From a virus, in IMG/VR virus record IMGVR_UViG_3300034119_000890, positions 1 to 39,355 of that record: a stretch of 39,355 bases of DNA; one strand, written 5' to 3'. The translations under genes were made by a program, and so were the position numbers. The first letter of the stretch is position 1; the number at the start of each line of letters is the position of its first letter. Below, piece by piece: positions 5,119 through 34,411 of the stretch. The notes under the pieces were generated by a model. The model saw only the letters and a list, made by a program, of their open reading frames with translations, was not told where the DNA came from and ran no database searches.

Positions 5119-6696
5119 TTAGAAGTACACTGCTTGGTTTCCAGGAGTAAATGCCTGACCGAGATTCTTGAGAATGATTGTGTGGTAATATAGTGCAGCT
5201 CCGAAAATATTATCCACCACGCCATATCTTGTCAAGAGACCTACGCGAGGAGCGAAGTCATTTGGACCGATTGTACGTTGAATCATCACAGGAATGTATG
5301 GGCAATAAATGATACCAGAGTCATAGAACTCAGTACCTTTATATCCCAACAAGGCATACTCAACACCAGCAGTTTGACCTGAGTAACCTAAGTCACCATA
5401 AACATCGCTGTTTTGTACTTCAGTGCGGGTATCACGATAAACTTGGAATCTACCACCAAGAGAACCAACTTTAGCTACGCCAGTTTGCTGGGTAGTTACG
5501 TTACCTTGAACGGTAACCCATTGGAATTCGGGAAGCATTTCGAAGATAGCGCAAACGCGAGGGGTTGCAACGATGAAGTTTGCAGGTCCACGACGGTTAC
5601 GAATTGCTATACGGTTTGCTTCGATAATTACTCTCTGGTAGAAGTCACGATTACGTTCAACCAACCAACGACCATCAGCAGATTGAGGAGACCAGATAGA
5701 ATATCCTTTTCCATAACCACCATTTAAGGAAGTTTGGATCATGCGGATAATCATTTCACGGTCGATTTCAGCTTGGATCTCATATGCCATAGCATTTGTG
5801 ATCTCAGCATCGATATCGATACCGTTCATATTCTTTAAGTCTTGCTCAAGCTCGACGGACCATTTTGCACCTAATCTACGTGTACCAGCCTCAACAGCAG
5901 TTTTCTCGAAGGAGACTTCAACTGTTGGGATGTTTGCGTTGATTTCGAAATTCTTAAGAATTTCAGCAACACCACGATCTTGGTTAGCAATTGCCCAATC
6001 AGCATTACCTGAGAGTGCATTGTTTTGAACACCAGTATAACGAGTGTCAAGATGTTGCCATCCGAGTTCGTTATCACCTTGTGGTGTTTGTTGACCAGTG
6101 TAACTTACAGCTGTTTGTGTATGTGTACCTGGTGCAGCAACGAATTGACCACCTTTGATGTATCCTTGAACTGGACCTTGTCCAACTCCACCAACATATG
6201 CACTATAAACAGGTGTTAAAGTGCTAGATGCTGTGGATGCATCTTGATAATCACCACCAAGTGATTGATTGCTGTATTTATATCGAAGTGCAAACGCAAG
6301 TCCTACAGGACCACTCATGGGTTGAACTCCAACGATTTCGTTAGTGATCAACTCAGGGAAGGTACGACGGATCATGGGAATCAAGATCTTAGGAAGACGA
6401 GCATCACCTTGTGCGTAGAAGTCGTTATTAGCGGGGAATCTACCACCATTATCACCATTGGTAGTTAATGCATTCGAACCATATCCGAATGCTCCAGCTC
6501 CACCAGCTACGTTAGCTTCACGTAAGCAATATGCTTCTTGGTTTTCCAAAAGCATTGCTGTGTTTAAACGAGTGTGTTCATCTTCGATTGCAGCTACATT
6601 CTTGCTGGTGTAATCGAGCACGGGTGCCCATTTTTCCAAAAGAACTCTAGCTCTATCTTGATCGATATACGATTGTGCGGGTTTGATTTGTTTCAT
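5119..6696 (-). CDS. 23: Major capsid protein gp23
   Basis: 525 aa, T4 gp23 family (HK97 fold); T4 gp23 is 521 aa. Shared features in order: a scaffold-binding N-terminus with WAPVLD and LLENQE (about 23-54), a gp21-type cleavage site L-R-E60|A61 near the T4 site (E65), GVQPMSGPVG, the spine-helix region KWSVELEQDLKNMNGIDIDAE, then YEIQAEIDREM, GGRFQVYRD, YCPYIPV and RVGLLTRYG. The frame is open to a TTG at 6738, but ATG 6696 (MKQIKPAQ) gives the expected N-terminus. Unlike most genes here it has no NTAAATA box at its ATG; instead a roughly 100 nt leader carries two small hairpins. Its DNA is visibly richer in G/C-ending codons than its neighbours, as expected for the most abundant protein. 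Confidence 0.97.
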   Translation of the reverse strand: MKQIKPAQSYIDQDRARVLLEKWAPVLDYTSKNVAAIEDEHTRLNTAMLLENQEAYCLREANVAGGAGAFGYGSNALTTNGDNGGRFPANNDFYAQGDARLPKILIPMIRRTFPELITNEIVGVQPMSGPVGLAFALRYKYSNQSLGGDYQDASTASSTLTPVYSAYVGGVGQGPVQGYIKGGQFVAAPGTHTQTAVSYTGQQTPQGDNELGWQHLDTRYTGVQNNALSGNADWAIANQDRGVAEILKNFEINANIPTVEVSFEKTAVEAGTRRLGAKWSVELEQDLKNMNGIDIDAEITNAMAYEIQAEIDREMIIRMIQTSLNGGYGKGYSIWSPQSADGRWLVERNRDFYQRVIIEANRIAIRNRRGPANFIVATPRVCAIFEMLPEFQWVTVQGNVTTQQTGVAKVGSLGGRFQVYRDTRTEVQNSDVYGDLGYSGQTAGVEYALLGYKGTEFYDSGIIYCPYIPVMIQRTIGPNDFAPRVGLLTRYGVVDNIFGAALYYHTIILKNLGQAFTPGNQAVYF

Positions 6697-6733
6697 ATGT
6701 GTTTTTGTGTTTCTTTCTATTTGTTTGTTCGAC

Positions 6734-6777
6734 CTCAAGCATGTTTAACATGCAGGAACTCAAGTATGTTTATACTT
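6734..6777 (-). repeat. Tandem near-identical hairpins in the capsid gene leader
   Basis: Two copies of CTCAAG(C/T)ATGTTTA on the plus strand at 6734-6747 and 6759-6772. Each copy forms a small hairpin with its flank: GCATGT/ACATGC with a 3 nt loop (6739-6753) and AAGTAT/ATACTT with a 4 nt loop (6762-6777). In minus-strand mRNA they lie about 40-80 nt upstream of the gp23 ATG and just after the gp22 stop. They have no T run, so they are not terminators. A role in mRNA processing, stability or translation control is possible. Confidence 0.6.
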
Positions 6778-6800
6778 CTACCAAATTTTAGATAAACATA

Positions 6801-7688
6801 TTAATATTTACTCATTTCGTTCAAATAATTTGAAACGTGTGAGTAATTATTTTCTGTTTGGGGTAAGCTTTGTTGTGTTTCTTCTTCTAGTACAACACGA
6901 TCTGCTTTAACGCTACGTGTTTCGAAGGCTTCTTTTTTCAAAGAAGAAATACGTTCTTCTTCTTTTTTATCAAAAAGTGAAAGTGTGTAGTCAAGATTCT
7001 CGACAATAAATTTAGGTGTTTTACCTTCAAATACACGAAGAGCATATTCTCTTTTCTTAGGTGGTAAATTTGCTGTCTTTTGTTCGAGAACTAATTCTGC
7101 TTTTGCTTTAGCAAGTGATTCACGAAGTTGTGAAACTTCTTTATTTAATTTTTCAGCAGATTTACGAGATTCATCAATTTGTTTTTTACCATCAACAACA
7201 GCATCTTTAAGTGATTCACTCATTAATGCAGAATCAATAGCTAAATTTTCTCTCAAATTATTTAATATAATTCTAGCTTTGTGATTTTTCACAGCTTCAT
7301 TAATAGCTTTTTGAGGAATTTTTTGTTCAATGAAAATTGAAATGTAATCAGAAATCTTATCAATTAAATCTGTTTTGAATTGTGTTGCTTGTTCTTTTAT
7401 AACACTTCTATAACGGTTTACTACCATTTGAAGTTTGTTAGCATTATTAGCATCTAATGCTTCAACAACACGTTGTAATTTTTTGCAATGGTCAGCATCA
7501 ATTGCTTCGAGTAATTTTTCTGCTTTTGATGTATACTCAGCATCTTGTTCGATTAATGCTTTCTCTACGTGAATTTTAACTCTTTCGCTAACTGCTCCAT
7601 CAAAGGCTTCTTGAATTTGTGCCAAAGTTTCATCAGTTAATATTCCTTGTGTTGCTTCTTTTAAGAGTTTGGAAATTTCTTGTGCCAT
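6801..7688 (-). CDS. 22: Prohead core scaffolding protein gp22
   Basis: 295 aa, helical and highly charged, in the T4 order 21-22-23. The N-terminal pattern (LTDETLAQIQEAFDGAVSER, then EKALIEQDAEY, LLEAIDADHCKKLQRVVEAL and a repeat ending KLQMVVNRY) is that of gp22 scaffolds in T4-like phages. The middle is a coiled coil (ESRKSAEKLNKEVSQLRESL). The scaffold shapes the prohead and is then degraded by gp21. The C-terminus is acidic and Gln-rich before the capsid-binding end. No promoter box at the ATG was found, so it is probably read through from upstream. Confidence 0.9.
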   Translation of the reverse strand: MAQEISKLLKEATQGILTDETLAQIQEAFDGAVSERVKIHVEKALIEQDAEYTSKAEKLLEAIDADHCKKLQRVVEALDANNANKLQMVVNRYRSVIKEQATQFKTDLIDKISDYISIFIEQKIPQKAINEAVKNHKARIILNNLRENLAIDSALMSESLKDAVVDGKKQIDESRKSAEKLNKEVSQLRESLAKAKAELVLEQKTANLPPKKREYALRVFEGKTPKFIVENLDYTLSLFDKKEEERISSLKKEAFETRSVKADRVVLEEETQQSLPQTENNYSHVSNYLNEMSKY

Positions 7689-8294: not shown

Positions 8295-8960
8295 TTATTT
8301 TATTTTGCTTAAGAACGCTAAAATCTGTTCCTTTAGATATTGTTCTACTTGTGTTTTAGGTAACTTAGATATACCTTTCTCAAGCTTATCGTATATCTCT
8401 TCATAATGTCCTGATTCACTAAGAACCCATTGTTTAGATTCTAAGATTCCGTTCACAAATGCTTTTGGAAAAGATGGATCAGCAACACAATCAACCGAAA
8501 TTAAACGAAAGTTTTTAACCACACTTTTACCACCAACACCTTCTTCTAATTGACCTAATGCACGAGAACTCATACCAACTTTAACTCCATCATTAATTAA
8601 TGCTCGTACAATGTGTCCGTTTGGTGTAGTTAACACTTTACTTTTTCCATGAAAAATATTTCCATCTTGATATAAGTCTGTAACCATGTGGCAAGCTTCT
8701 TTCAATGAAACTTCAGCACTACTTTCATGATTAAGAGTTCCCATAGCACGACCAGTTTTAATCATTTCTTGCTTATATCTATCAACCTCTTTAACCATTT
8801 CATCTAATTTATATAATCTATTATTACGATTATAATTTTCAGCCATCATATATGGTCCTTTGATGTAAAGTGTTGATGGACTATTACGATCCTTTTCTTC
8901 CACAATATATTCAAATTGTTCTTCTGAAGCAGGTTTTTCGACAATTAATCTTAATGACAT
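8295..8960 (-). CDS. 21: Prohead core protease gp21
   Basis: 221 aa, T4 gp21 family (herpes-assemblin-like serine protease fold; T4 gp21 is 212 aa). Signature elements: MAENYNRNNRLYK near the N-terminus, the catalytic His in TLNHESSAEV (about residue 78), the catalytic Ser in VGMSSRALG (about 130) and SVDCVADPSFPKAFV. It removes the scaffold and trims head proteins after a Glu in (L/I)-x-E sites during maturation. Candidate substrates in this window are gp23 and several small proteins with leader peptides. A CTAAATAA box lies 4 nt before the ATG. It is divergent from the Lys/Pro-rich gene at 9036. Confidence 0.93.
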   Translation of the reverse strand: MSLRLIVEKPASEEQFEYIVEEKDRNSPSTLYIKGPYMMAENYNRNNRLYKLDEMVKEVDRYKQEMIKTGRAMGTLNHESSAEVSLKEACHMVTDLYQDGNIFHGKSKVLTTPNGHIVRALINDGVKVGMSSRALGQLEEGVGGKSVVKNFRLISVDCVADPSFPKAFVNGILESKQWVLSESGHYEEIYDKLEKGISKLPKTQVEQYLKEQILAFLSKIK

Positions 8961-9035: not shown

Positions 9036-10115
9036 ATGATTAATGATCAAAATTTAATATTTGAAGAATACATAAAATCAATTGCATGTATTTCAGAGGC
9101 TAAATATCATGCAGGTCTTCATGGTTTAAAGCAACTTGCAGGGGCACACAAAAAAGGTTATATTATGGGGCATCCAGAAGAATTAATGGGTAGACAAGGT
9201 AAGTTTGAAGATAGGTTACAAAAAAGTATTGATAATAATGAAATTGTTGATTTAATAGAATTATTAACTCAAGAATACACTAACGACGAAGGAAAGACAT
9301 TTCCCCCATTTTACGAAGATCCTGACGATGCAAAATATGCTATATTAACACTTACAGGAGCAAACTTTAGACAAAGAACAAACTTCAACCCCTTTCCAGA
9401 TGTAGAAGAAATCGGAGCATTTAGAATACCTTATTTTAGAATTCCAGATTTAATATTAAATGTAGAATCTAGATTAAAAGATGCCACAGAAGGTGATCAA
9501 GAAATATTAAATGCTTTAGATAAAGTTCTTAAAAAAACTTATAAAGAATATCAAATCAGTAAAGGACAAACTCCAGAAGATGTCACAGAATTAAGTACAG
9601 TACGCTCGTTTAGACCTCTAGAAATCGAAAGAACCGATAAATTTGGAAATAAATATAAAACAATAACCACATCAAAGTATGGTGGTAAGGAGCGTGGGGG
9701 GCAAGCAGAAAGATTTATTAGAGCTACAACCAAAGATGAATATGAAAGATTAAAACATCTAGAAGATCAAGGATTCACTGTTGTGTTTGATCCATCACAA
9801 GATCCAGAAACACTTGGACAAAAAACACCTCATATGAATCCATCTAGAGAATTACCACCATCTATAGATTTTAGAAAACATAGAACAGAAGAACCAGAAA
9901 AGAAAAAAGAAACTAAACCAAAATCTAAACCTAAAGCAACATCTAAACCCAAACAAAAAAAACCTGAACCTAAAAAACCTGAAACTAAAAAACCTGAAAC
10001 TAAAAAACCTGAACCTAAATCTAAATCAAAAAAAGAAACAAAACCTGAACCTAAATCTAAAGCTAAAAAACAAAGAGTAGAAGAATCTTATTTTTTTAAA
10101 ATTATTCCGTTTTAA
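9036..10115 (+). CDS. Candidate packaged head protein with Lys/Pro-rich tail
   Basis: 359 aa, no family recognised. The N-terminus (LIFEEYIKSIACISE|AKYHAG) resembles a T4 capsid-targeting leader with an I-S-E|A cleavage site at residue 21. A globular region of about 30-285 follows, with PFYEDPDDAKYAI and a duplicated FRIPYFRIPDL. The tail (about 285-350) is almost only Lys, Pro, Glu, Thr and Ser and includes four KPE(P/T)K repeats; such a basic tail could bind packaged DNA. It lies on the opposite strand inside the structural block, between gp21 and gp4, and overlaps the end of the convergent gp4 gene by 14 bases. Virion location is inferred from leader, promoter class and position. Confidence 0.7.
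   Translation: MINDQNLIFEEYIKSIACISEAKYHAGLHGLKQLAGAHKKGYIMGHPEELMGRQGKFEDRLQKSIDNNEIVDLIELLTQEYTNDEGKTFPPFYEDPDDAKYAILTLTGANFRQRTNFNPFPDVEEIGAFRIPYFRIPDLILNVESRLKDATEGDQEILNALDKVLKKTYKEYQISKGQTPEDVTELSTVRSFRPLEIERTDKFGNKYKTITTSKYGGKERGGQAERFIRATTKDEYERLKHLEDQGFTVVFDPSQDPETLGQKTPHMNPSRELPPSIDFRKHRTEEPEKKKETKPKSKPKATSKPKQKKPEPKKPETKKPETKKPEPKSKSKKETKPEPKSKAKKQRVEESYFFKIIPF
9960..10019 (+). repeat. Four 15-bp tandem repeats coding KPE(P/T)K
   Basis: Units start at 9960, 9975, 9990 and 10005; each reads AAACCTGAA(C/A)CTAAA. They are in frame, giving residues 309-328 of the Lys/Pro-rich protein, and flanking sequence contains degenerate copies. Copy number is likely to vary between relatives. 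Confidence 0.9.
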
Positions 10116-10563
10116 ATAAATTCTTTTCTGTTAATAATAAAAATTCAGCATTACGGGAAGCGGCAAATTTTTTTGCAGCTTCCCATTTTGCTTTATTAAC
10201 AGCCCATTGAGTAACTTCATATTGAATAGTCGCTTTCTTTTTTCTATTGGAAATTTTTGGTGGTTGTGTTTGTGAAAACGGTTTTATCTCTATAAGATAT
10301 TTTTTAATCTGTTCACCTTCTTTAATTACAACATAGTTATCAACATAATATCTATGCATCCTTTCATCTATAGGACTTTTATATGGTATAACAATATTTT
10401 CACTACCCCATTCTAATACATTAGGATTTTGATCAGCCCAAAGAAAAAACTTTCTTTCATATGAAGAACGAAAAATTGCAACTTTACCTATAAATTTTTG
10501 TGGATTTTTAGGTCTAAATATACCTTGTATAAATCTTGGATCTTTTTTGAAAAGAGGTGGCAT
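10102..10563 (-). CDS. 4: Head completion protein gp4 (TnsA/PD-(D/E)XK-like)
   Basis: 153 aa; T4 gp4 (also called gp50) is about 150 aa. The family pattern is clear: NPQKFIGK, then YRSS-like SSYERKFFLWADQNPNVLEW, NIVIPYKSPIDERMHRYYVD and a core ending YLIEIKP, the E-x-K of the nuclease-type fold. It joins the head after packaging and is needed before tail attachment. It directly follows the ADP-ribosyltransferase-like gene. Its last bases overlap the convergent Lys/Pro-rich gene. Confidence 0.88.
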   Translation of the reverse strand: MPPLFKKDPRFIQGIFRPKNPQKFIGKVAIFRSSYERKFFLWADQNPNVLEWGSENIVIPYKSPIDERMHRYYVDNYVVIKEGEQIKKYLIEIKPFSQTQPPKISNRKKKATIQYEVTQWAVNKAKWEAAKKFAASRNAEFLLLTEKNLFKTE

Positions 10564-10567
10564 TAAA

Positions 10568-10575
10568 ATATTTAA
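10568..10575 (-). promoter_or_regulatory. Late-promoter-like box before gp4
   Basis: TTAAATAT on the minus strand, 4 nt before the ATG at 10563. It overlaps the TAA stop codon of the upstream ADP-ribosyltransferase-like gene. Confidence 0.4.
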
Positions 10576-11162
10576 CTTGGATCATATCCCCATTCAAATA
10601 TCGAATTACCGTCTGTATATAAATGTTTGACTAAAACTGTTTTTGTTAAAATCTTCCCCTTTCCACCTAAAGCAGAATTTTTATGTTCTATAGCATAATT
10701 ACGATCTATAGTAACCCAATCATTTGGATTGATAGTTATTTTTGTTTCTGGTTTATCTAAATCTGGAGATCTCTGTAAAGATTCTATTTTATCAACTAAA
10801 TCACTAAAATATGTTTTTTTATCATATCCATATGGAACTCTACCTCTTCTTAAAAACTTAGATTTTTTTTGGTTCAATTCATTTATCTGATCTCTAATAC
10901 TAAGTATCTTTGGTACTGCTCTATATATTTTTATTTTTGCATTAGGTTTATTATAAAAATTTCGTATAATATTTACAGCAGTTTTATCACGATAGTCTGC
11001 ATAATGAGCATAATATCTGGCAACAGTATCTGAAGGCAAAGAATAAAAATCTTTTCCATATACATCAATTACATTCCATAATGGTGTATCGTTTTTATTT
11101 GGTGCTGTATGAGATCCTCTATAATCTTCGGATTCTAAGAAATATTGTTTAAAACTTTTCAT
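10572..11162 (-). CDS. Putative ADP-ribosyltransferase with capsid-targeting leader
   Basis: 196 aa. The N-terminus MKSFKQYFLE|SED matches the T4 internal-protein leader MKTYQEFIAE|A in length and pattern, with the Glu at position 10. The rest resembles phage ADP-ribosyltransferase-fold proteins: IKIYRAVP with the NAD-binding Arg81, then ITINPNDWVTIDRNYAIEH (143-160) and a C-terminal NSIFEWGYDP with the candidate catalytic Glu190. T4 packages the unrelated-looking ADP-ribosyltransferase Alt, which modifies host RNA polymerase on injection. By analogy this could be an injected host-takeover enzyme, but the target is unknown. It sits between a spanin gene and gp4, after a 1 nt gap. Confidence 0.7.
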   Translation of the reverse strand: MKSFKQYFLESEDYRGSHTAPNKNDTPLWNVIDVYGKDFYSLPSDTVARYYAHYADYRDKTAVNIIRNFYNKPNAKIKIYRAVPKILSIRDQINELNQKKSKFLRRGRVPYGYDKKTYFSDLVDKIESLQRSPDLDKPETKITINPNDWVTIDRNYAIEHKNSALGGKGKILTKTVLVKHLYTDGNSIFEWGYDPS

Positions 11163-11163
11163 A

Positions 11164-11703
11164 TTATTCTTTTTTAGGAATTACTTTTATTAAATTATTA
11201 AAAAATCCAGAAGGAACAAAATAAATTATTAATGATATTATCCCTATTATAATTATACAAATTGTATAAAATTTTTTATCACGTTTACTCTGATCTTTTT
11301 CTAAAGCTTCTAATTTAATATTAGAGGCTACTAATTCTGCTACAATATTATCATCTTTTTGTTTTAATTCATTTATATCTTCTTTACGTTTATCATCTTC
11401 TTTTAATATATCATCAACAAAATCATCTAACTCTTTTCCATCTAAATTTTTTATATCTTTACCATCATTATCATTTGTATCTAATAAATCTTTTATAGCT
11501 TCTAATAAAGTTCCAATTTGTTTAGTATTAGCAGATCCAGATGAAATTATATGAGAAGTTTTAACTACTAACAATTTAACATCTTTAATAGTTTCATTTT
11601 GTTTTTTTCTGATTTCACGTTGATATGTTGTATGTGTTTCTATTGGTGTACGACAACTTATTATTGAAATAAAAATTAAAAAATATATAAAGTATTTTTT
11701 CAT
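11164..11703 (-). CDS. Putative unimolecular spanin (u-spanin)
   Basis: 179 aa with the layout of T1 gp11-type u-spanins, which fuse inner and outer membranes at the last step of lysis. There is a lipoprotein signal with lipobox IISC (Cys17), a periplasmic stretch of about 18-143 that is charged and coiled-coil-like, a C-terminal membrane helix at about 146-163 (FYTICIIIIGIISLIIYFV) and a short basic cytoplasmic tail ending IPKKE. T1 gp11 is shorter (about 131 aa). A lipoprotein-anchored spanin implies a Gram-negative host. No holin or endolysin is visible in the window, so lysis genes are scattered. An exact TATAAATA box is 2-3 nt before the ATG. Confidence 0.75.
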   Translation of the reverse strand: MKKYFIYFLIFISIISCRTPIETHTTYQREIRKKQNETIKDVKLLVVKTSHIISSGSANTKQIGTLLEAIKDLLDTNDNDGKDIKNLDGKELDDFVDDILKEDDKRKEDINELKQKDDNIVAELVASNIKLEALEKDQSKRDKKFYTICIIIIGIISLIIYFVPSGFFNNLIKVIPKKE

Positions 11704-11733: not shown

Positions 11734-12909
11734 TTAACCTATCAAAAATATAGATGGGTCTGAGTCTCCAAATCCAGCAGCATTAGTAAATAATTGTGTT
11801 TCTAATTTTTCTTTTTCGGCTTTACCATCTTCTTTAATATCAGAAACCCAAGCTTGACCACCGAAAATATTTACACCTGAAAATTTACCTCTAACATAAC
11901 CAACACCAATTTTAGTTAATGCCAATGCATATTGATATACCCAAATTTCTTTTATTAAATCACGTATTGGTTTTTCTATATAACAGTCTAATACACCATA
12001 AAATCTAACTGAATTTGTTGGTTCTGGATAAATTCTAAGGTATTGAGTTCTATCATTAAATTCAAAACTACGTTTTGTAGCTAATACCTTTTCTCTAGTT
12101 TCCAGCCAATTCTTAACTGTATACCAACTAATTAAATCAAATCCATAATTTCCCATTGCATAACTAAAATAAGTTTGTTGTGCTAATGTTTGTTCTATAG
12201 TAAATAAAGTGTTCACTCCAGTAGTAGAACCTTCTTCAAAATTAACTACTGCCATAACCTTTCTATATTCCATAACATCATAATCAAACATGTTATTATA
12301 CATTTTTGTTTCTTGAGAATTATCAACTACTCCATTCATACTAATTTGTTCACTATAAGAGGGAACAAAAAATGTTGATACTGGTATTACATTTAATGAA
12401 GGATTATTAGCAAACGAAGTTACTATATGAGTATATGTCGTATAATCAAATATCATGTTTCTTTCCATTCCATTTGGAAATGCAGCAGATAATTCATTAC
12501 TTAAAGTGAAAAACATTTTATCCAAACTATTTTTAGTAATATAATATACATTTGGATTTAATAAATAAGGTGCTGTATCAGGAGAATTCGTTTTATGATT
12601 TACTTTATCACTTAAAGTAAAATTATTATTTGCTACTGTGTATAAATGATCTAATCTAATACCTCTACCTTTTTCATATAAAGATGAATCTAAAATCAAA
12701 TATTCTCTAGTATAACCAGCATATTTCGAAAACATTTCACATGCTATAGAAATATTTTCAAATATTTGATCTTGATGTGTTTCTACAGATACTAATGGAG
12801 CACCAATAGCACGAACAATTCTATCAGCTAATCTACCAAAAGAATCGATTTTACTATTTAAATTTGTACTTTGGAAAGCAGTAATTGGCGTAATTACACA
12901 TGTAGACAT
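11734..12909 (-). CDS. 13: Neck/head-tail connector protein, gp13-like
   Basis: 391 aa, immediately after the portal gene. The N-terminal segment (VRAIGAPLVSVETHQDQIFE, then EMFSKYAGYTREYLI) follows the R-x-L/I-G-x-P...V-E-x-x-x-x-Q-I pattern of gp13-type neck proteins in T4-like phages. The C-terminal half (TQYLRIYPEP, IKEIWVYQYALALTKIGVGY, VRGKFSG) also fits that family. T4 gp13 is 309 aa, so this one is longer. It would cap the portal after packaging and receive the tail. gp14 is not visible in the window. The 13 versus 14 assignment is from pattern memory and could be wrong. Confidence 0.7.
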   Translation of the reverse strand: MSTCVITPITAFQSTNLNSKIDSFGRLADRIVRAIGAPLVSVETHQDQIFENISIACEMFSKYAGYTREYLILDSSLYEKGRGIRLDHLYTVANNNFTLSDKVNHKTNSPDTAPYLLNPNVYYITKNSLDKMFFTLSNELSAAFPNGMERNMIFDYTTYTHIVTSFANNPSLNVIPVSTFFVPSYSEQISMNGVVDNSQETKMYNNMFDYDVMEYRKVMAVVNFEEGSTTGVNTLFTIEQTLAQQTYFSYAMGNYGFDLISWYTVKNWLETREKVLATKRSFEFNDRTQYLRIYPEPTNSVRFYGVLDCYIEKPIRDLIKEIWVYQYALALTKIGVGYVRGKFSGVNIFGGQAWVSDIKEDGKAEKEKLETQLFTNAAGFGDSDPSIFLIG

Positions 12910-12927: not shown

Positions 12928-14748
12928 TTATGTTGTAGATGATGTAGGTGTTTTAGGTGGTGGTGTAGTTCCCCCTGCTGGTGGTGGTGTTCCCCCACCT
13001 TCTGCACCAGCTTCTTCTGGTGCTGCTTCTGCTGCGCCACCTTCTGGTACTGCTGGTCCACCTGTAAATGCTGGTGGTAATCCACCTCCACCACCTCCAC
13101 CACCTTCACCAATTTCTGGTGTTTCCCCACCAGCTGCTTGTGCAGCTACCATTTCTTTCCAATTAGGACCATTTGCTTCGATTTGAGCCAATTCCCAGCG
13201 CAATTCTTTATCTTTACGTAAAAATTCACGATTAGCTTTAATATCAATATCAGACCAACCAAGATATCTTTTCTGTGCAAATGTTGGTGATATAGATTCA
13301 TTATTTGCTAAATTACTGAAATTATTAACTTTTAGTTCTAATTTTTGACTTTCTCTAAGTTCGTAAAAGTTAGTTGGAACATTAAATTCTATTTGAATAG
13401 ACTCTTCTTTTAATTCAAAATCTTTCCACAAACCTTTCATTTGTAGATGTGTAATAAAGCCTGTCTTAATTCCAGAAGAAAACAACTGTTGTTGACGAAT
13501 AATAAATCGTGCAAATTTTAATTCTTCACGCAACATATCAGCACCATCACGAAATGCGTCTTGGGGATCTAAACGTGTAGTCGGAACCTTTAATGACTGA
13601 TAAAGTTTTTTAACAAAGTACATCAAATCTTCTAGTTCTCCTAAATTTCCTGCACCAGCTAATTGAGTTACACTAGTACCTTCAGAACCAGCACGTTTAG
13701 CAAACCAAAAATTATCAAGAATACTTTGTGGATTAAACTTTTGTACTATTCCACCTTGATTAGGATCATATGTTTTAGAAGACCAATAATTTGTAACTAA
13801 TTTTTTAAGAAATGCTTCAGCTTTTGGTGCTGACATATTACCTACATCAACATTAAAAACCAGACGTTCTGGAGCACGGGCTAAACGATAAATCACAATA
13901 CTATCTTCAATCATCGATAATTGACGATAAGCTCTTCTACAATTTTCTAAAAATGGAAGACGCATAGTCTTACTTTCATTCCATACATCAGAGTTAATAT
14001 AAGTAACTTGATTTTTATCCATTGGAATAAAATCCACACCAATTTGTTTTAATGGATTATTAGGATCAAATTTAGGTTTGCGATACAAATAACCTTTAAT
14101 TATAACATTTTGTACATTAGAAAATACTGGATCGATAAGTTCAGTAGGTACTTGTACAACTCCAAGTATACCTTCTTCTGGGTAATCTTTATGTATAATA
14201 TGCTCCCAATAAATTTCTCCCTCAACCATTAATTGTCTAAAATATCCCCATCCTTTATGTTCAAAATCAAAATGACTTGTATATTTAGAAAATTCCTTTT
14301 GTAAAGTTTCTGTCTGATAATTTGATAATTGTATGTTTTTAAATTTCAGTTCCATACAATTATTTGTACTAGAATTGATATTAATTACTTCATCACAAAT
14401 TTCATCTAAAGCATTTGCAACTTCAGAAAATGCTGCCATCACTCTATAATCTCTTATTCTTGCTGCTTTATCCTTTTGGATATTAGCATACATTATCTGA
14501 CTATATTGTTTATCCGAGGTAATACTTCCCACTGAAGCATTATTATAGTCATAATTTTGTGATATTGAATGTCTAGATAAAACTTCAGCTCTTCTGATTC
14601 CTGTTTCTTCGAAATATTTGTATTTTGGATTTAATGTATCAGTTAATTTTGTTACATCAAATCCAGAATAAGGTAATTTTGATGATATATAACTCATCAA
14701 TTCTCTACCAAACGTAGAAGATTTTCCATCATCGAAGTTAGAAGCCAT
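12928..14748 (-). CDS. 20: Portal protein gp20
   Basis: 606 aa; T4 gp20 is 524 aa. Family landmarks in order: YRVMAAFSEVANALDEICDE (about 100-120), GWGYFRQLMVEGEIYWEHII, the crown/wing region LENCRRAYRQLSMIEDSIVIYRLARAPERL, and the clip/stem block NYWSSKTYDPNQGG, FWFAKRAGSEGTSVTQLAGA and LYQSLKVPTTRLDP. It forms the DNA-packaging vertex. The last about 65 residues are an unusual low-complexity tail of Gly, Pro, Ala, Glu and Thr with eight Gly in a row, encoded by a GC-rich island in AT-rich DNA. That tail accounts for most of the extra length. Confidence 0.95.
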   Translation of the reverse strand: MASNFDDGKSSTFGRELMSYISSKLPYSGFDVTKLTDTLNPKYKYFEETGIRRAEVLSRHSISQNYDYNNASVGSITSDKQYSQIMYANIQKDKAARIRDYRVMAAFSEVANALDEICDEVININSSTNNCMELKFKNIQLSNYQTETLQKEFSKYTSHFDFEHKGWGYFRQLMVEGEIYWEHIIHKDYPEEGILGVVQVPTELIDPVFSNVQNVIIKGYLYRKPKFDPNNPLKQIGVDFIPMDKNQVTYINSDVWNESKTMRLPFLENCRRAYRQLSMIEDSIVIYRLARAPERLVFNVDVGNMSAPKAEAFLKKLVTNYWSSKTYDPNQGGIVQKFNPQSILDNFWFAKRAGSEGTSVTQLAGAGNLGELEDLMYFVKKLYQSLKVPTTRLDPQDAFRDGADMLREELKFARFIIRQQQLFSSGIKTGFITHLQMKGLWKDFELKEESIQIEFNVPTNFYELRESQKLELKVNNFSNLANNESISPTFAQKRYLGWSDIDIKANREFLRKDKELRWELAQIEANGPNWKEMVAAQAAGGETPEIGEGGGGGGGGLPPAFTGGPAVPEGGAAEAAPEEAGAEGGGTPPPAGGTTPPPKTPTSSTT

Positions 14749-18866: not shown

Positions 18867-19499
18867 TCAATCTTTCTTTTTTAAGATAGATGTAATACTT
18901 TCTCGATTATTAGTATAATACAATTCTGTATATTCTATTCTATCATAGATAATTTTTAAGTAATCTTCATTAACATGAAAATTATCAAAACTTTCTACTT
19001 TATTAGAAAAATTAGAAATCAATTCTAATGTAGTTTTTTTAGATAAATCATTGTTATAAAAATGATGATATCCTAAACTTGTGTGCAAATCTTCTAAAAT
19101 ATAGAAACCACCTTTTTTTAATCTATGTAACATAGATACTAAAGATAATTGTTGTTGATACATAGAATGACCACCATCATCAATAATAATATCAAATTTA
19201 ACAGATGGAAATATATTATTCATAGTATTAACATCTGTTTGATCTGCTTGTTCAATAAATATTCTATCTTCTTCTAAATGTTTTAAATTTGTAATATCTA
19301 CACCGTATATTTCAGAATTTAAAAAATAATCTTTCCACATTTTTAAAGATTCTCCTTTCCAAATTCCTATCTCCAATATTTTTAGATTATTATTTCTTAT
19401 GGAAGAAAATTTATTATCATAAAATTCAGTAAATTTGTGGTCTTTTGCTTTATCAGTATTATAAAGAATTCCAATTTCTGTTAAAGATTTTTGTTCCAT
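18867..19499 (-). CDS. SAM-dependent methyltransferase (class I)
   Basis: 210 aa, Rossmann-type. Motif I is LEIGIWKGESLKMW (about 41-54), the acidic end of strand 2 is YGVDITN, and the motif IV region is FDIIIDDGGHS followed by GGFYILEDLHTS. This arrangement, with the D-D-G-x-H and E-D-x-H residues, is typical of CmcI-like methyltransferases that modify sugars or natural products. Its place just upstream of gp62 and the sugar cassette suggests a glycan O-methyltransferase. A TTAAATAA box lies 5 nt before the ATG. The substrate is not known. Confidence 0.8.
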   Translation of the reverse strand: MEQKSLTEIGILYNTDKAKDHKFTEFYDNKFSSIRNNNLKILEIGIWKGESLKMWKDYFLNSEIYGVDITNLKHLEEDRIFIEQADQTDVNTMNNIFPSVKFDIIIDDGGHSMYQQQLSLVSMLHRLKKGGFYILEDLHTSLGYHHFYNNDLSKKTTLELISNFSNKVESFDNFHVNEDYLKIIYDRIEYTELYYTNNRESITSILKKKD

Positions 19500-19504
19500 T
19501 TGGT

Positions 19505-19512
19505 TTATTTAA
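19505..19512 (-). promoter_or_regulatory. Late-promoter-like box before the methyltransferase
   Basis: TTAAATAA on the minus strand, 5 nt before the ATG at 19499, in the 17 nt gap after the gp62-like gene. Confidence 0.45.
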
Positions 19513-19516
19513 TTTT

Positions 19517-19882
19517 TTATTTTAAAAATTCAATTAATTGTTTTATTTCTCTTTGTGACAACTCCATGCAATCAGCTAATTGCTTTGTTTCTACGTCCTC
19601 TTCTTTTTTATCATTTTTTTGTTTTTTAATATATTCTATTTTACGTTTTTTTGATTTAGGAAACATATTAAAACAAAAATCATATTGATCTTGTTTTAAT
19701 GATAAAACTTCTTTGAATTGATTTGACGTTTGATTAATAATCTGAGCAAGGTCGGGAGAATACATGCTACACCAACGATTAAGCATATACAAATTGAATT
19801 GAGTTTCCCTTTCATTGATTTTATTTAGCTTTTTTTTATTAAACAAAACAGAATCTATATAATTAAAAATAGTTTCTTCCAT
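19517..19882 (-). CDS. 62: Probable clamp-loader small subunit gp62
   Basis: 121 aa. The order of short motifs follows gp62 of T4-like phages, particularly the shorter cyanophage forms: a FNLYMLNRWCSMYSPDL helix, MN-like QTSNQF, QYDFCFNMFPKSKKR and a C-terminal helix LSQREIKQLIEFL. With gp44 it loads the gp45 sliding clamp. T4 gp62 is 187 aa. No gp44 or gp45 gene is in the window. It begins 1 nt after the fucose synthase stop codon, an odd place for a replication gene. Assignment is from pattern and could be wrong. Confidence 0.55.
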   Translation of the reverse strand: MEETIFNYIDSVLFNKKKLNKINERETQFNLYMLNRWCSMYSPDLAQIINQTSNQFKEVLSLKQDQYDFCFNMFPKSKKRKIEYIKKQKNDKKEEDVETKQLADCMELSQREIKQLIEFLK

Positions 19883-19883
19883 G

Positions 19884-20792
19884 TTAAAAGTTTTTCAAAA
19901 AATCATCATAAGATATTTTCAGTCCAATGTCAAATGGTGTTTCCTCAAAATCTATTATACTTCTCAATAAATCGTTATTTAATTTTTTTCTAGGAGTTCC
20001 ATCCAATTTAGGGTCACCAGTTTTTATTATTCCTTTATAACCAACTGTTTCAGCTACTTTTTTAGCTAAATCTAAAATAGTAAATTCGTAATTAGAACCA
20101 GCATTAACCCAATCTGGAGGATTTTCTATTTCTAATAATTGTAAACAAATTTTAGCTAAATCATCGACATACAGGAATTCTCTTTTCGGTAAACCACTTC
20201 CCCATATTTCAACTTCATTTACATTATTAATTTTTGCTGTATGAAATTTATGAAACATCCCTGGTATAACATGAGAATTTTCTGGATGATAATTATCATT
20301 TAATCCATACAAATTAGTTGGCATTATAGAATGATAGATCACACCATATTGTTTTCTATAATATTGACACATTTTTAATCCTGTAATTTTAGAAATTGCG
20401 TAACCTTCATTGGTTGGTTCTAATTCCGATTGTAATAAATATTCTTCTTTAATTGGTTGTGGAGCAAATTTTGGATATATACAGGAACTTCCCAAAAATA
20501 ATAATCTCTTAACACCATGTTTATATGAACTGTTTATTAAATTAGAAGATATCATCAAATTATCATACAAAAAATCAGCAGGATAAGTTTTATTATATAA
20601 AATACCTCCAACTTTAGCAGCAGAAATAATTACAATATCAGGTTTATTAATTGATATAAACTTATCAACATCATGCTGATTCCTTAAATCAAATAATCTA
20701 TCATCTGTAATTAAGTTATAATTATTAGCAAATCTACAAATAGCAGATCCAACCATACCTTTATTTCCAGCTACAAATAATTTCTTTTTCAT
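19884..20792 (-). CDS. fcl: GDP-L-fucose synthase family epimerase/reductase (Fcl or ColC)
   Basis: 302 aa, extended short-chain dehydrogenase. N-terminal NAD(P) motif GNKGMVG (about 9-15), catalytic SSCIYP with the family Ser/Cys, YAISK (Y-x3-K) and the GDP-fucose synthase segment FLYVDDLA near the C-terminal half. Fcl converts GDP-4-keto-6-deoxymannose to GDP-L-fucose by 3,5-epimerisation and 4-reduction. The close relative ColC makes GDP-L-colitose from the 3-deoxy intermediate. The ColD-like gene two places upstream means either product is possible, and the sequence does not settle it. It follows gmd after 4 nt. Confidence 0.88.
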   Translation of the reverse strand: MKKKLFVAGNKGMVGSAICRFANNYNLITDDRLFDLRNQHDVDKFISINKPDIVIISAAKVGGILYNKTYPADFLYDNLMISSNLINSSYKHGVKRLLFLGSSCIYPKFAPQPIKEEYLLQSELEPTNEGYAISKITGLKMCQYYRKQYGVIYHSIMPTNLYGLNDNYHPENSHVIPGMFHKFHTAKINNVNEVEIWGSGLPKREFLYVDDLAKICLQLLEIENPPDWVNAGSNYEFTILDLAKKVAETVGYKGIIKTGDPKLDGTPRKKLNNDLLRSIIDFEETPFDIGLKISYDDFLKNF

Positions 20793-20796
20793 AACT

Positions 20797-21837
20797 CTAT
20801 TCTTTTTTAGCTAATTCCCAATCAGCTTTTGTCATAATTTCAACCAATTCATCAAATTTAACTTTAGGATACCAATCTAATTCTTTTTGAGCTTTTGTAG
20901 CATCTCCTAAAAGGAGATCCACTTCAGATGGTCTAAAATATTTAGAATCAACTTTTACTAAAGTTTTACCAGTTTTTACATCAACGCCGATTTCATTTTC
21001 TTGACCTTTAGAATAAAATTCTAAATCTATACCAACATATCTAAAAGACTTTTCACAAAATTCCCTAATAGTATGTGTTTCTCCTGTAGCACACACATAA
21101 TCATCTGGAGAATCTTTTTGTAAAATCCTCCACATCATATCTGTATATTCTGGAGCATAACCCCAATCACGTTTAGCATCTAAATTACCTAAATATAAAC
21201 AATCTTGTAATCCTTCTTTAATTCTTCCTACCGCTCTAGTAATTTTTCTAGATACAAAAGTTTCTCCTCGTCTAGGAGATTCGTGATTAAAAAGTATTCC
21301 GTTAGAAGCATGAATTCCATATGCTTCTCTATAATTCACAACACACCAATATCCATAGATTTTAGCAACTCCGTATGGAGATCTTGGATAAAAAGGAGTT
21401 TTTTCATTTTGTGGTATTTCTTGAACTTTACCATATAATTCAGAAGTTGAAGCTTGATAAAATCTAGTTTTATCTTTTAATCCAACTTCTTTAATAGCAT
21501 CTAAAAATCTTAAAGTACCAATAGCATCAACTTGTGCTGTATATTCTGGTATATCAAATGATACTTTTACATGACTCTGTGCTGCTAAATTATAAATTTC
21601 ATCTGGTGTTATTTTTTCTAGTAATCTATTAATATTACTAGAATCTGTGACATCACCATAATGTAATTTAAATGTTTCTTTAAAAGTTTCATTATTGAAA
21701 ATATGATCTATCCTAGATGTATTAAATGAAGATGAACGTCTAATTATTCCATGAACTTCATAACCTTTTTCCAAAAGTTGTTCAGCTAAATACGAACCAT
21801 CTTGTCCTGTTATACCTGTTATAAGAGCTTTTTTCAT
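20797..21837 (-). CDS. gmd: GDP-mannose 4,6-dehydratase
   Basis: 346 aa, typical family length. Signature N-terminus [16 protein letters not shown] with the NADP glycine motif, then [18 protein letters not shown], catalytic STSELYGK, and YGVAK carrying the active-site Tyr and Lys. [10 protein letters not shown] and the GDP-binding [11 protein letters not shown] are intact. It makes GDP-4-keto-6-deoxy-D-mannose, the shared substrate for GDP-fucose and GDP-colitose or perosamine branches. It overlaps the ColD-like gene by 4 nt, so the two are translationally coupled. All catalytic residues look functional. Confidence 0.97.
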
Positions 21838-23000
21838 GCGATTATATTATTAACTAATTTACAAATTTGTAAAACTTCTTCTTCTTCTAATTGATGATTG
21901 TTTGGTAAATATAAACCATTATAATGTACTACATCAGCAAAATCAAATTTTTCTTCACCGTATAACTCAACCCAATATGGTTGTTTACCAATCGACCCAC
22001 AAACCAAAGGTCTAGATGCTACATTATATTCATCTAATATAGATACCAATTCTTTTATTTTTGGGTGTATAATAGGATAAGCAAAATTAGAATAAAAACA
22101 ATTATCATAATCTTTAATTTTCCAAAAGTTATTTTTTATATTTTGTTGATATAACAAATAATTTCTATATCGCTTTTCAGAAAAATCATTAATTTTTTCT
22201 AATTGTTGTAATCCTATAAAAGCTTGTAAATCTGTTGATCTTAAATTAAAGGCTGGGTAATAAAAAGTGTATAATGCTCTAAAATCATTTACATTATATT
22301 TGGTTCTCAGTTCTCGTTTACTATCTTCATCCAAATCTCTATCCCAACCATGGGATCGTAAAGAAACTAAAAGTTTATATAATTCATAATCATCAGTACT
22401 AATCATTCCACCTTCTATAGTGGACATGTGATGACCATAAAAAAACGAAAAAGTACTCATCAAACCAAAATTTCCAGTCTTAATGCTATTGTATGTAGAT
22501 CCAATAGATTCACAAGAATCTTCCAATAAAATTACATCATATTTTTTACATATATCTAAAATCTCCTGCATTTTATTAGGAAAACCTAATATATGCACCA
22601 ACATAATTACAGAAGGTTTATATGCTACAACTAATTCTTCTAAATGTTTTATATCTAAACCTAATGTATCTTTATCACATTCACATAAAATTGGGTCCAT
22701 CCCAAACTGAATTGCTGGTGTTACTGTAGTTGTCCAAGATACTGCTGGTAAAATTATTTTATTATTTTTTAATTTTTTAGATTGTAATAAAGCATATATC
22801 ATTAATAAATTTGCACTAGATCCAGAATTAACATAAACTGAATATTTTTTACCCAAATATTCAGACCATTTCTTTTCAAATTCAATAGTTAAATCGGATT
22901 TGGTTAATTTAGGATTAGTTTCTAACCAACCTACTAATTTCTTAATAGTATCTAAATCTATTGTATCTCTTACTAAAGGTATGTCTAATTTGTTTATCAT
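21834..23000 (-). CDS. colD: ColD-like GDP-4-keto-6-deoxymannose 3-dehydratase
   Basis: 388 aa, PLP-dependent DegT/StrS aminotransferase fold. PLP-site segments are present: NSGSSANLL (58-66), [11 protein letters not shown] with Asp161, and [14 protein letters not shown] (185-198). In ordinary DegT enzymes the position of His190 is the Lys that forms the internal aldimine. Replacement by His is the hallmark of ColD, which removes the 3-hydroxyl of GDP-4-keto-6-deoxymannose on the way to L-colitose. The adjacent gmd provides exactly that substrate. The frame extends to 23051, but ATG 23000 ([12 protein letters not shown]) is the likely start and leaves a 20 nt gap after the upstream gene. Not an aminotransferase if the His call holds. 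Confidence 0.85.
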
Positions 23001-23020
23001 TTTAAGTTTTTGTTTTTTAT

Positions 23021-23815
23021 TTATAAATTTATATCTATTAAAGATTTCCAAAAATTTATAGTCAATAAATTTTTATTATAATTTTTAATCGTAAAAGAAT
23101 CTAATAGTTCTTGTGTTATTTCCGAAAAATCATTTACTTGCAAAATAGGCAAATCCCAAACATCATATATATAATTTTTAATTACAATAGGTATACAACC
23201 TACATATAGTGCTTCCCATGTTCTGTGACAATCTATACCATTACCAATAGGTGATAATACAAATTTATGCCCAGCCATTCTTTGTATATATTCATTAAAT
23301 GGTAAGTTATGATCATGAATATATTCTATATTATTAATTTTTAATTTATCAATTATATTAATTCTGTCTGAATTTGTTATATTCCAATTACAATAAACTT
23401 TATTTATTTTTTTAGTTTTTTCTAAAGAATTAATATTACTACCAAACCAACTGGTCATATATTGTGGTTCTAAATAACTACCTTTATGAGTTTTTAATCC
23501 TAATGGTATAGGAATTAGATTTGTATCTTTAACTGTAGGATTAATCGCAAACCATTTATTTACACATTTCGGTTTTTTATTCCATCTTTCTTGATTAATA
23601 GGATAATCACTATGGTGCGTTATTATGTTATAACTATACTTTGAATGTTTTAAATTTTCAAACAAATAATCTATAAAATCAGTTTTACAAAAAATTGTTG
23701 CATTTCTATTTAAAATTTCTGGAACAAAATATTTCCCATATGGTGGAATTATAGAATAATCACAAATATCTTCGTAATTACCAGCATTTAAAATGTTTTT
23801 AACATTAAATTCCAT
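23021..23815 (-). CDS. Exostosin-like (GT47-type) glycosyltransferase
   Basis: 264 aa. The C-terminal donor-binding segment (FVLSPIGNGIDCHRTWEALYVGCIPIVI, in parts) is typical of exostosin/GT47 and related GT-B enzymes found in phage and giant-virus sugar clusters: an Arg-Thr-Trp-Glu-Ala block followed by G-C-I-P-I-V. The N-terminal half has YSYNIITHHSDYPIN and NPTVKDTNLIPIPLGL. The acceptor and sugar are unknown. It begins directly after the methyltransferase-like gene stop and shares its strand with the whole cassette. Confidence 0.7.
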   Translation of the reverse strand: MEFNVKNILNAGNYEDICDYSIIPPYGKYFVPEILNRNATIFCKTDFIDYLFENLKHSKYSYNIITHHSDYPINQERWNKKPKCVNKWFAINPTVKDTNLIPIPLGLKTHKGSYLEPQYMTSWFGSNINSLEKTKKINKVYCNWNITNSDRINIIDKLKINNIEYIHDHNLPFNEYIQRMAGHKFVLSPIGNGIDCHRTWEALYVGCIPIVIKNYIYDVWDLPILQVNDFSEITQELLDSFTIKNYNKNLLTINFWKSLIDINL

Positions 23816-24388
23816 TTAATTAAATAAAACTATTCCTGTACCACTCCAATGTCCTATTGAAGTTATATCATGTTTTTGGTATTCTATATTATTCCAAAAT
23901 GTTTTCATTTCTTCATTTAGATGGATATCATCTAATAATAAAATACCTTTCCAATTTAATTCTTTTAATTTATTATAAAAAATATTTTCATAGATTCCAT
24001 CATGATTTACATCTAAGAAAACAAAAGGACTATCATATAAGTCATTATCTTCAGTAGAATCCCCCAAGATATACTCTACATTTTCTATTATTGGATTCTT
24101 ATCCAAAATTTGAATTACATCATAAGATTTAATTTTGTTGTTTGTATTATATGACAATGAAAGTGCAGATCTACAAGCGTTAGTCCCAACATCAAATAAT
24201 TTAACATTATTATATAATGTCGATATATATGAAAGCAATCTATAATGTTCAGTACCAGATTCTAAAGTCAAAAATCTATAGGTATGATCATATTCTAATA
24301 AATTTTTAAACTTAGAATTTAAATCTAAACTATTTAGAATATTATTATCCGTTTCTAATATCTTTTTGTAAATTTCTAAATTATTCAT
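23816..24388 (-). CDS. Second SAM methyltransferase-like protein
   Basis: 190 aa. Glycine motif LFDVGTNACRSALSLS (about 69-84), acidic strand SYDVIQIL, then FVFLDVNHDGIYENIF and a GILLLDDIHLNEEM strand-helix. This is the same general layout as the methyltransferase at 18867, with D-x-x-H-D and DDIH residues. Tiled between two glycosyltransferases (4 nt overlap upstream, abutting downstream), it is likely to modify the same glycan. The enzymatic activity is inferred, and the motif I glycines are fewer than usual. Confidence 0.65.
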   Translation of the reverse strand: MNNLEIYKKILETDNNILNSLDLNSKFKNLLEYDHTYRFLTLESGTEHYRLLSYISTLYNNVKLFDVGTNACRSALSLSYNTNNKIKSYDVIQILDKNPIIENVEYILGDSTEDNDLYDSPFVFLDVNHDGIYENIFYNKLKELNWKGILLLDDIHLNEEMKTFWNNIEYQKHDITSIGHWSGTGIVLFN

Positions 24389-25158
24389 ATTTGCATTCTA
24401 TTTAATCCTGTTCCGATATATTCCAAATGTTTATGTTGATAAGAATTCCAGTCATGACGGATATTCATCTGCTTTAAAGGTAGTCCACATGATATCAAAT
24501 AAAACCCCCACATTCTTTCTACAATACCACACATCCTATGATTACAAGTATTCATTATACCCCATCTATTTTGCAGTAAAATGTTTTCAATTTCAAGATA
24601 AAAATCGTTTAAAAATTTAGCAAATTTTAAAAATACATGTTTTGGAGTAACACTCAAACATTCACTTATCCACTCATTATTTTTAATATATTTACTATCT
24701 ATATTCATACCCAAACCATTACTCATAAATTCACATATACGATCTAGTTCATAATCTGATAAAAATAAAGCATTATTACCTCTCCTCATTTCATAAAAAA
24801 TAGTTTCTGGTTCTAATTTTAGAGATTCTATTATTTCATTAACAGAATTTTTATTAAAGATAACATCATAATGCACCACACCTACATGTGTTAAATCTTT
24901 AATCAATTCATAGTTGTTATAAAGATGCAAAAAAGTTCCATACTCATAATACTGTTTAGATTGGAAATCATAATTATTCCAAGGCAATTCCCATTCTTTA
25001 ATTGTTTTATTTACTAATGGTGATATTAATTTTTTAACCTTTTTTTGAACTGTGTATGCTGTAACAAATTTTAACTCTTCTTCAGTTAATTGTTCAACTA
25101 CTTTATTTTGTATTTGATCATATGCAACAACAAATACTTCTAAATTTACATCTTTCAT
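24385..25158 (-). CDS. Glycosyltransferase-like protein of unknown specificity
   Basis: 257 aa. The middle (YYEYGTFLHLYNNYELIKDL, then THVGVVHYDVIF) recalls DUF4422-type and related glycosyltransferases in which an E/Y-x-x-x-x-x-x-Y...N helix precedes V-G-x-x-H/Q-Y-D. The C-terminus contains RMCGIVERMWGFYL. There is no obvious signal peptide or membrane span. It is the first gene after a 55 nt gap and overlaps the next gene by 4 nt, so a transcript may start here; a weak GTAAATAG box is 5 nt before the ATG. Confidence 0.55.
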   Translation of the reverse strand: MKDVNLEVFVVAYDQIQNKVVEQLTEEELKFVTAYTVQKKVKKLISPLVNKTIKEWELPWNNYDFQSKQYYEYGTFLHLYNNYELIKDLTHVGVVHYDVIFNKNSVNEIIESLKLEPETIFYEMRRGNNALFLSDYELDRICEFMSNGLGMNIDSKYIKNNEWISECLSVTPKHVFLKFAKFLNDFYLEIENILLQNRWGIMNTCNHRMCGIVERMWGFYLISCGLPLKQMNIRHDWNSYQHKHLEYIGTGLNRMQI

Positions 25159-25163
25159 GCAGC

Positions 25164-25171
25164 CTATTTAC
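25164..25171 (-). promoter_or_regulatory. Weak late-promoter-like box inside the sugar cassette
   Basis: GTAAATAG on the minus strand, 5 nt before the ATG at 25158. It lies in one of the two largest gaps within the cassette, making this the likeliest internal start site. Confidence 0.3.
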
Positions 25172-25213
25172 TGAAATTTTAGAAACTATCAAGATTCTTA
25201 ATATTAAGAATTT

Positions 25214-25930
25214 TTAAAATACTCCTCTATGATGATAAAATAATTGTTCGTATGGTCTTTCCAATTCACTACCAAATTGAGATGGTTGAGGTAATAAATT
25301 TATGTTATATTTTTTAGCCATAATAGATAATATTGATTGATCATGTCTATGATCATGAAATTCTGGCAAATTTGGTTTAGTTATATTAGGTAAATCAGTT
25401 ATTATATTTCTATTATTAGCATAATAATAAAATTCATCCAAAAACTTTTTAACAAAATCACATTTTTTAAATAACATAATTGAAGCATCAACTTGTGGTG
25501 CATCATAATATATTTCATCATCACAATCCATTAAAACATAACAATCTCTTTTAGTCCATTTTCTATTAAAATGTTGTTTTTTCTTATCCATGTTATTAAA
25601 AAAAACTATATCATCTTTTTTACATTGTTCGATGATATAATTCAAATTATTAATTATGGTATGTCCGCTATCTACATATAATAATATATCATTATCTTCC
25701 AACTTCTCAATAGCTTGTTTAAATATACAAGATTTCCACATCCAATAACCACAACCTCTCGTATAATTATTTAAAATATCTTTATTTTTATCGAAAAATT
25801 CTTTTTCTAAATTAGAAAGGTTATAAGATATATAACCATTAACACCTTTATTTTCGGCAGATTTATTTAGATTTTCTTGGGATCTACACCATTTAGGACT
25901 TGAAGCAAATGATATTAGTAATGTTTTCAT
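25214..25930 (-). CDS. Putative GT-A type glycosyltransferase
   Basis: 238 aa. The segment RGCGYWMWKSCIFKQAIEKL followed by DNDILLYVDSGH resembles the nucleotide-sugar domain of glycosyltransferases in phage and bacterial capsule clusters, with D-S-G in place of D-x-D. The C-terminal part HDQSILSIMAKKYNINLLPQ carries the conserved H-D-Q-S-I. The last residues (FYHHRGVF) are also typical. Donor and acceptor are not evident. It is followed after 3 nt by the GT11 gene. Confidence 0.6.
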   Translation of the reverse strand: MKTLLISFASSPKWCRSQENLNKSAENKGVNGYISYNLSNLEKEFFDKNKDILNNYTRGCGYWMWKSCIFKQAIEKLEDNDILLYVDSGHTIINNLNYIIEQCKKDDIVFFNNMDKKKQHFNRKWTKRDCYVLMDCDDEIYYDAPQVDASIMLFKKCDFVKKFLDEFYYYANNRNIITDLPNITKPNLPEFHDHRHDQSILSIMAKKYNINLLPQPSQFGSELERPYEQLFYHHRGVF

Positions 25931-25933
25931 AAT

Positions 25934-34008: not shown

Positions 34009-34016
34009 TTATTTAA
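34009..34016 (-). promoter_or_regulatory. Late-promoter-like box deciding the start at 34003
   Basis: TTAAATAA on the minus strand, 5 nt before ATG 34003. It overlaps both the alternative ATG at 34009 and the stop of the upstream retropepsin-like gene. Confidence 0.45.
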
Positions 34017-34411
34017 CATTGTATTAATGCTTTTAATGGTTCTAAAAACTTTAAACCTATTAATACTTTCTCATCATTCTCAGATCTATTACCTATAGAG
34101 AATTTTTGGTTTGTATATTTTTTATCTTTTAGAATAAAATCAAAATGAACTATAGGTCTAGATTCTTCTACACCAGCACCGACATTAATTTTAATAGTAT
34201 CAACTAATCTTTTTTGGATTCTTTTACCGTCTGATGTTGTAAAATGAACAATATCGTCTTCTATCTTTATATCATCACCATGAAGAACCCCATATGCATC
34301 ATTCCCACTATCTATTTTAGCAGAAAAATCACCAATACCAACTATAGAAATGGGCTCTTTAGGAGAAAAAGTTATTTTAGATTCGGAATAAAACTCCTTA
34401 AACGATTTCAT
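34013..34411 (-). CDS. Retropepsin-like (RimK-associated Zn_protease family) protein with capsid leader
   Basis: 132 aa. The leader MKSFKEFYSE|S matches the T4 internal-protein leader with Glu at position 10. The rest follows the PF05618-type family (retropepsin-like fold, named ATP-dependent zinc protease): FSAKIDSGNDAYGVLHGDDI with the candidate catalytic Asp34 in D-S-G, then ESRPIVHFDFILKDKKY, SIGNRSENDEKVLIGLKFL. Bacterial members have D-T-G and N-R-S-D...L-L-G-x-x-F-L. If packaged, it could act in the head or on host proteins after injection. Fold assignment is by motif order, and activity is untested. Confidence 0.65.
   Translation of the reverse strand: MKSFKEFYSESKITFSPKEPISIVGIGDFSAKIDSGNDAYGVLHGDDIKIEDDIVHFTTSDGKRIQKRLVDTIKINVGAGVEESRPIVHFDFILKDKKYTNQKFSIGNRSENDEKVLIGLKFLEPLKALIQC

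Follow-up and report, generated by a model that had tools for sequence, protein, structure and literature searches.

The minus-strand gene at 10572-11162 of the window (the whole 39,355-nucleotide stretch of viral DNA analysed here) is best read as encoding a head-packaged effector, most likely with an ADP-ribosyltransferase (ART)-like domain that would modify a macromolecule at DNA entry, and we assign this reading a probability of about 0.52. Packaging, which the original prediction had claimed from the sequence, is likely, judging from the leader peptide, the head-gene context and the relatives in which the domain is fused to MuF, portal, lysozyme or polyvalent proteins. An ART-like active site, also claimed there, is consistent with the conserved residues, although no individual match is significant; an ART-like enzyme is plausible on these residues and the predicted fold.

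The gene is an intact ORF of 196 aa, separated by 1 nt from the stop codon of the gene before it and by 8 nt from the gene for a gp4-like head-closure protein that follows. The features that define its surroundings are:

10572..11162, minus strand: the 196-aa gene, an unfused member of the domain family related to phrog_2579 (intact ORF; PHROG E 1.3e-28)
10102..10563, minus strand: head closure protein (gp4-like), directly downstream of the 196-aa gene (phrog_218, E 1.6e-50)
11734..12909, minus strand: neck or head-tail adaptor (phrog_211)
12928..14748, minus strand: portal protein (phrog_213, E 1.7e-98)
8295..8960, minus strand: head maturation protease of gp21 type, which would be expected to cleave the leader (phrog_207, E 5e-54)
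5119..6738, minus strand: major capsid protein, gp23 (phrog_138, E 1.4e-83)

The minus-strand order runs from the tail sheath stabiliser through the portal, the neck adaptor, a small lipoprotein-like gene and the 196-aa gene to head closure, and resumes past one plus-strand gene with the gp21-type protease, a gene of no assigned family, a scaffold-position gene and the major capsid protein. The prohead protease gene is intact in the window, a 39-kb virus record. A gp4 homologue also adjoins the family member in a diverged phage (L016/L017). The lipoprotein-like gene (11164-11703, minus strand, 179 aa) carries a lipobox (ISIISC) close to the N-terminus and a hydrophobic helix at the C-terminal end, and looks like a u-spanin (one-protein spanin) amid head genes.

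The N-terminus of the 196-aa protein resembles the T4 capsid-targeting sequence, in which residues 4 and 7 are important for targeting and the cut at L/I-x-E involves residues 8 and 10 (PMC9026906):

11133..11162, minus strand: MKSFKQYFLE, residues 1-10, capsid-targeting-sequence-like leader (F4, Y7 and E10 as in the T4 rules)

These residues are modelled by AlphaFold at pLDDT <50 and lie outside the fold. The leader has aromatic residues at 4 and 7, as the T4 leaders do, and Glu10, but Phe8 (F-L-E) departs from L/I-x-E, so that the gp21 cleavage motif is not present in the protein's own leader. Compared with the T4 record, it is identical to IPIII/IPII (MKTYQEFIAE) only at M1, K2 and E10 and to IPI (MKTFKEFTST) at M1, K2, F4 and K5. 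The likeness to IPI-IPIII comprises a short leader, hydrophobic residues at 4 and 7 and, for IPII and IPIII, Glu10, while F8 replaces Ile and the bodies of the proteins are unrelated; a "near-perfect" T4 leader, as first described, overstates these three or four identities. Across the family, L/I-x-E falls within 12 residues before the domain in 22 of 27 short-leader members and 11 of 45 internal copies (counts that ignore relatedness). We discarded the hypothesis that cutting off the leader frees an N-terminal YRG motif for activity, since fused members carry this motif internally.

A second gene in the window has a leader of the same type:

34013..34411, minus strand: gene of unrelated sequence with the leader MKSFKEFYSE, candidate second packaged cargo (leader match; weak PF05618)

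The pair MKSFKQYFLE/MKSFKEFYSE reaches a BLOSUM score of 35, whereas none of 1000 shuffles exceeded 31, which bears out for the window that the leader is above chance. Sharing extends to other phages: leaders vary from phage to phage, yet are common to unrelated genes inside one phage (MINFKEYLME twice in L066, MKLxxILFE repeated in L018 and in L022, MIKLKDILxE twice in L033). For 8 of the 21 phages, the leader's top match within the phage's own stretch beats every control phage, where about one would be expected; the pooled Fisher p is 0.004, modest because a partner is missing from many short stretches. Shared leaders would make the head cargo of T4-like phages predictable from sequence, which could be checked in phages available in culture, Vibrio phage 1.081.O among them.

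Several genes with shared N-termini merit separate mention. The product of 34013-34411 (132 aa) contains a DSG motif and matches PF05618 (retropepsin-like "Zn_protease") weakly, with an E-value (9e-4) that misses the cut-off; it is possibly a protease. In L022 the gene at 6700-7092 starts MKLHSILFE, the leader of that phage's other cargo, and appears Nudix-like by eye, making it a candidate packaged Nudix protein. Neighbouring genes in L015, L026, L029 and L063 have a different leader in common, KxRLFEVMxR, which hints that these phages share N-terminal signals of a further class.

That the protein is instead an intracellular late protein, its leader likeness being coincidental or another kind of signal, we consider distinctly unlikely. 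The deviation at F8 would fit such a protein, as would the Vibrio phage 1.081.O relative, which adjoins nucleotide-metabolism genes and whose leader finds no partner among the other ORFs of that phage; the head-gene context, the sharing of leaders and the fusion of relatives to virion proteins argue against it.

The family to which the domain belongs is large and essentially phage-borne, as scans of IMG/VR with progressively wider patterns recovered 8, then 132, then at least 554 relatives, against one among the 84,980 species of a prokaryote scan (on a 6.5-kb MAG contig). Annotated phages with a member include Vibrio phage 1.081.O (Schizotequatrovirus; AUR85775), Rhodococcus phage E3 (gp206) and a Manatee Spring myovirus. 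In addition to its family member, the Vibrio phage record (MG592456) has genes annotated as Sir2, macro-domain, PARP-domain and quinolinate phosphoribosyltransferase. Pfam, NCBIfam and a PDB sequence search gave no family for the domain. In PHROGs the 196-aa protein falls in phrog_2579 (E 1.3e-28), a profile matched by all 65 aligned relatives and thus the same family, labelled "ParB C-terminal domain". This label is what speaks for a DNA-binding or dimerisation domain of ParB type, a reading that we regard as very improbable: the domain has no ParB match in Pfam or NCBIfam, no ParB structure occurs among the fold matches, and the ParB_N domains found in two relatives (L072, L090) lie more than 700 residues from it. 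The label may have been inherited from an annotated member, e.g. Rhodococcus phage E3 gp206, and ParB function was rejected as unsupported.

Fusions of relatives suggest a second route into the virion. The domain is fused to MuF in L024, to portal plus MuF in L085 and to phage lysozyme in L054; further fusions are to GNAT, RadC and ParB_N (L051, L072, L090). In the polyvalent proteins L019, L046, L065 and L077 it directly follows an ART-PolyVal (H-Y-D) domain, a recurrent pairing, and in L092 an ART-PolyVal-like stretch comes after it. The pattern fits the polyvalent-protein concept (PMC5512222), and many phage ARTs have been concluded to be head-packaged (PMC9503650). While the ART-PolyVal domains are predicted virion effectors that share polypeptides with the domain, often directly upstream of it, membership of that family (PF18760) was rejected: the domain has no Pfam match, R rather than H at strand 1, and no profile similarity in hhalign (P 0.49).

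Tentatively, these proteins may form a phage-exclusive ART clade, not described before, whose single domain enters virions either behind a leader or through MuF, portal or polyvalent fusion. It is possible, at a similar level of doubt, that within such a two-route clade T4-like and large phages use a genome-specific leader common to their other cargo and other phages use fusions. If so, the packaged cargo of a phage could be recognised in its sequence by the shared leader. As far as libraries and literature show, what is new here is the family, its doubtful "ParB" label and the sharing of leaders; packaged ARTs as a theme were already known. The suggestion that the protein is an independent solution to host modification is accordingly weakened, because head-packaged ARTs beyond Alt have been described as widespread (PMC5512222, PMC9503650).

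Residue conservation was counted across 129 family members and centres on the following elements of the 196-aa protein:

11100..11123, minus strand: YRGSHTAP, residues 14-21, family-specific N-terminal motif (Y14, H18, A20 and P21 near-invariant)
10920..10922, minus strand: R81, candidate catalytic Arg in the predicted first main strand, residues 76-84 (IKIYRAVP) (128/129; paired with the catalytic Arg of ModA, ModB and Alt in the best local alignments)
10737..10901, minus strand: helical hairpin insert, residues ~88-142, missing in compact members (from the alignment; helices 89-106 and 115-130)
10710..10724, minus strand: NDWVT, residues 147-151, second strand motif ([G/N]DWV[T/S]) (D148 and W149 129/129; T/S151 121/129)
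10584..10613, minus strand: DGNSIFEWGY, residues 184-193, with E190 the candidate catalytic Glu (E190 and G192 128/128)

The pattern R81, NDWVTIDR and E190, first noticed in the single ORF, is present there, and its key residues are near-invariant across the 129 members, and so it is not a chance arrangement. R81 is R in 128 of 129 members, D148, W149 and Y156 are invariant (129/129), H160 is H in 128 of 129, and E190, like G192, is retained in all 128 members having the position. Position 151 is T in 107 members and S in 14, with A or M in the remaining 8 of 129. Two features of the R-S-E clade are seen: an Arg on strand 1 (R81, in predicted strand 76-84) and a Glu on a late strand (E190, just ahead of predicted strand 191-193). 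The STS triplet is absent from the position-151 strand motif in the 129-member alignment, and E190 lacks the usual Q/E two residues earlier, leaving no ExE. The N-terminal YRGxHTAP motif is conserved about as strongly as the R81/E190-type residues.

Structure prediction and fold comparison, the check proposed with the original prediction, gave a confident fold and an enrichment of ART chains, but no single significant PDB match. The AlphaFold model of the window protein has a mean pLDDT of 88.2, its leader being disordered, and that of the compact L044 domain a pLDDT of 95.7 and a pTM of 0.88. Foldseek against viral models recovered the family, mostly uncharacterised and polyvalent proteins. 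Against the PDB no match was significant: the best had an E of 0.67 and a probability of 0.11, and the ART matches had a TM of 0.34 or less. With the compact model, 8 of 45 nominal PDB matches are, judged by their names, ART-fold chains (2a5g, 1og3, 1gxy, 6gn0, 2wn4, 4fk7 and two chains of 4zv4), namely cholera toxin A1, rat ART2.2 (two entries), ExoS, CDTa, Certhrax and Tse6 (two chains); no PARP-type entry is among the 45. Even were 1% of PDB chains ART-fold, ~0.45 would be expected among 45, and a Poisson estimate for the excess, with the eight chains counted as six distinct proteins, is ~1e-5. With the full-length model, one of the 50 displayed PDB matches is an ART, the R-S-E ART 2a5g (E 0.67), which is the best by E-value. 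The ART-fold signal is therefore an enrichment among weak matches, not a match.

Profile comparison by hhalign with T4 ModA, ModB and Alt was likewise not significant (E 0.04-0.14), and in this non-significant range the best local alignment with each of the three pairs R81 with the catalytic Arg. A single-protein Alt scan returned chiefly close Alt relatives. The ART assignment draws on the invariant R81 and E190, T/S at 151 and the enrichment of R-S-E ARTs among weak structural matches; taken one by one, none of the sequence or structure matches reaches significance.

Alternatively, the packaged protein could carry something other than an ART: a different kind of enzyme, or a domain that condenses DNA or binds the host, in either case with a fold that the PDB does not yet contain. 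The PDB comparison, significant in no case, would fit such a domain, and the invariant Y14, H18, A20, P21 and H160 lie outside the ART pattern and suggest an active site beyond R and E; the enrichment of R-S-E ART chains and the order and spacing of strand-R, strand-T/S-helix and strand-E point the other way, and we consider a non-ART domain rather unlikely. An ART fold acting as an NAD+ hydrolase or phosphorylase, depleting or remodelling NAD+ instead of modifying a macromolecule, is improbable. The missing Q/E two residues ahead of E190 would suit it, and Tse6 (4zv4), an NAD glycohydrolase, is among the weak fold matches. Phage ARTs of such a type have been discussed (PMC9503650). However, a handful of packaged molecules would then have to deplete the NAD+ pool, and the ART-PolyVal domains that relatives adjoin are predicted to modify macromolecules.

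The preferred ART-like domain shares with T4 Alt a T4-type head, a leader expected to be cut by gp21, the residue order R...S/T...E and a proposed injection with the DNA. It differs in length (196 aa against 682), in lacking ExE and in having a 10-aa IP-type leader in place of Alt's 7-aa propeptide; similarity is not significant (E 0.14), so that the description "unlike T4 Alt" holds at the level of sequence. The contrast with Alt lies in the absence of detectable homology together with the IP-type leader. A length of only 196 aa, which had been thought distinctive, does not set the protein apart because ModA and ModB are equally small. These two, at about 200 aa, also pair their catalytic Arg with R81 in local alignment (E 0.04-0.07, not significant), but are synthesised in the infected cell, not packaged, and have no leader.

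In the mechanism that we propose, the N-terminal peptide would direct the protein into the prohead core, where the gp21 protease probably cuts it off after Glu10; the mature domain would be held in the head and enter with the DNA at injection. As for the domain, we consider a compact ART-like enzyme of R-S/T-E type, specific to phages, most likely. Its first strand would carry R81 and its second T151, with E190 ahead of the last strand, and it would draw on NAD+ to modify a macromolecule of the host or of a defence system as the DNA enters. If this is true, a large unannotated family (>500 phage loci) would join the enzymes injected at DNA entry and a misleading "ParB" label would be corrected. 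Elsewhere in the window, 18867-29823 comprises a long series of genes that by eye are sugar-nucleotide- and glycosyltransferase-like, in a T4-like phage, and include a GDP-mannose dehydratase, a GDP-fucose synthase-like protein and an aminotransferase.
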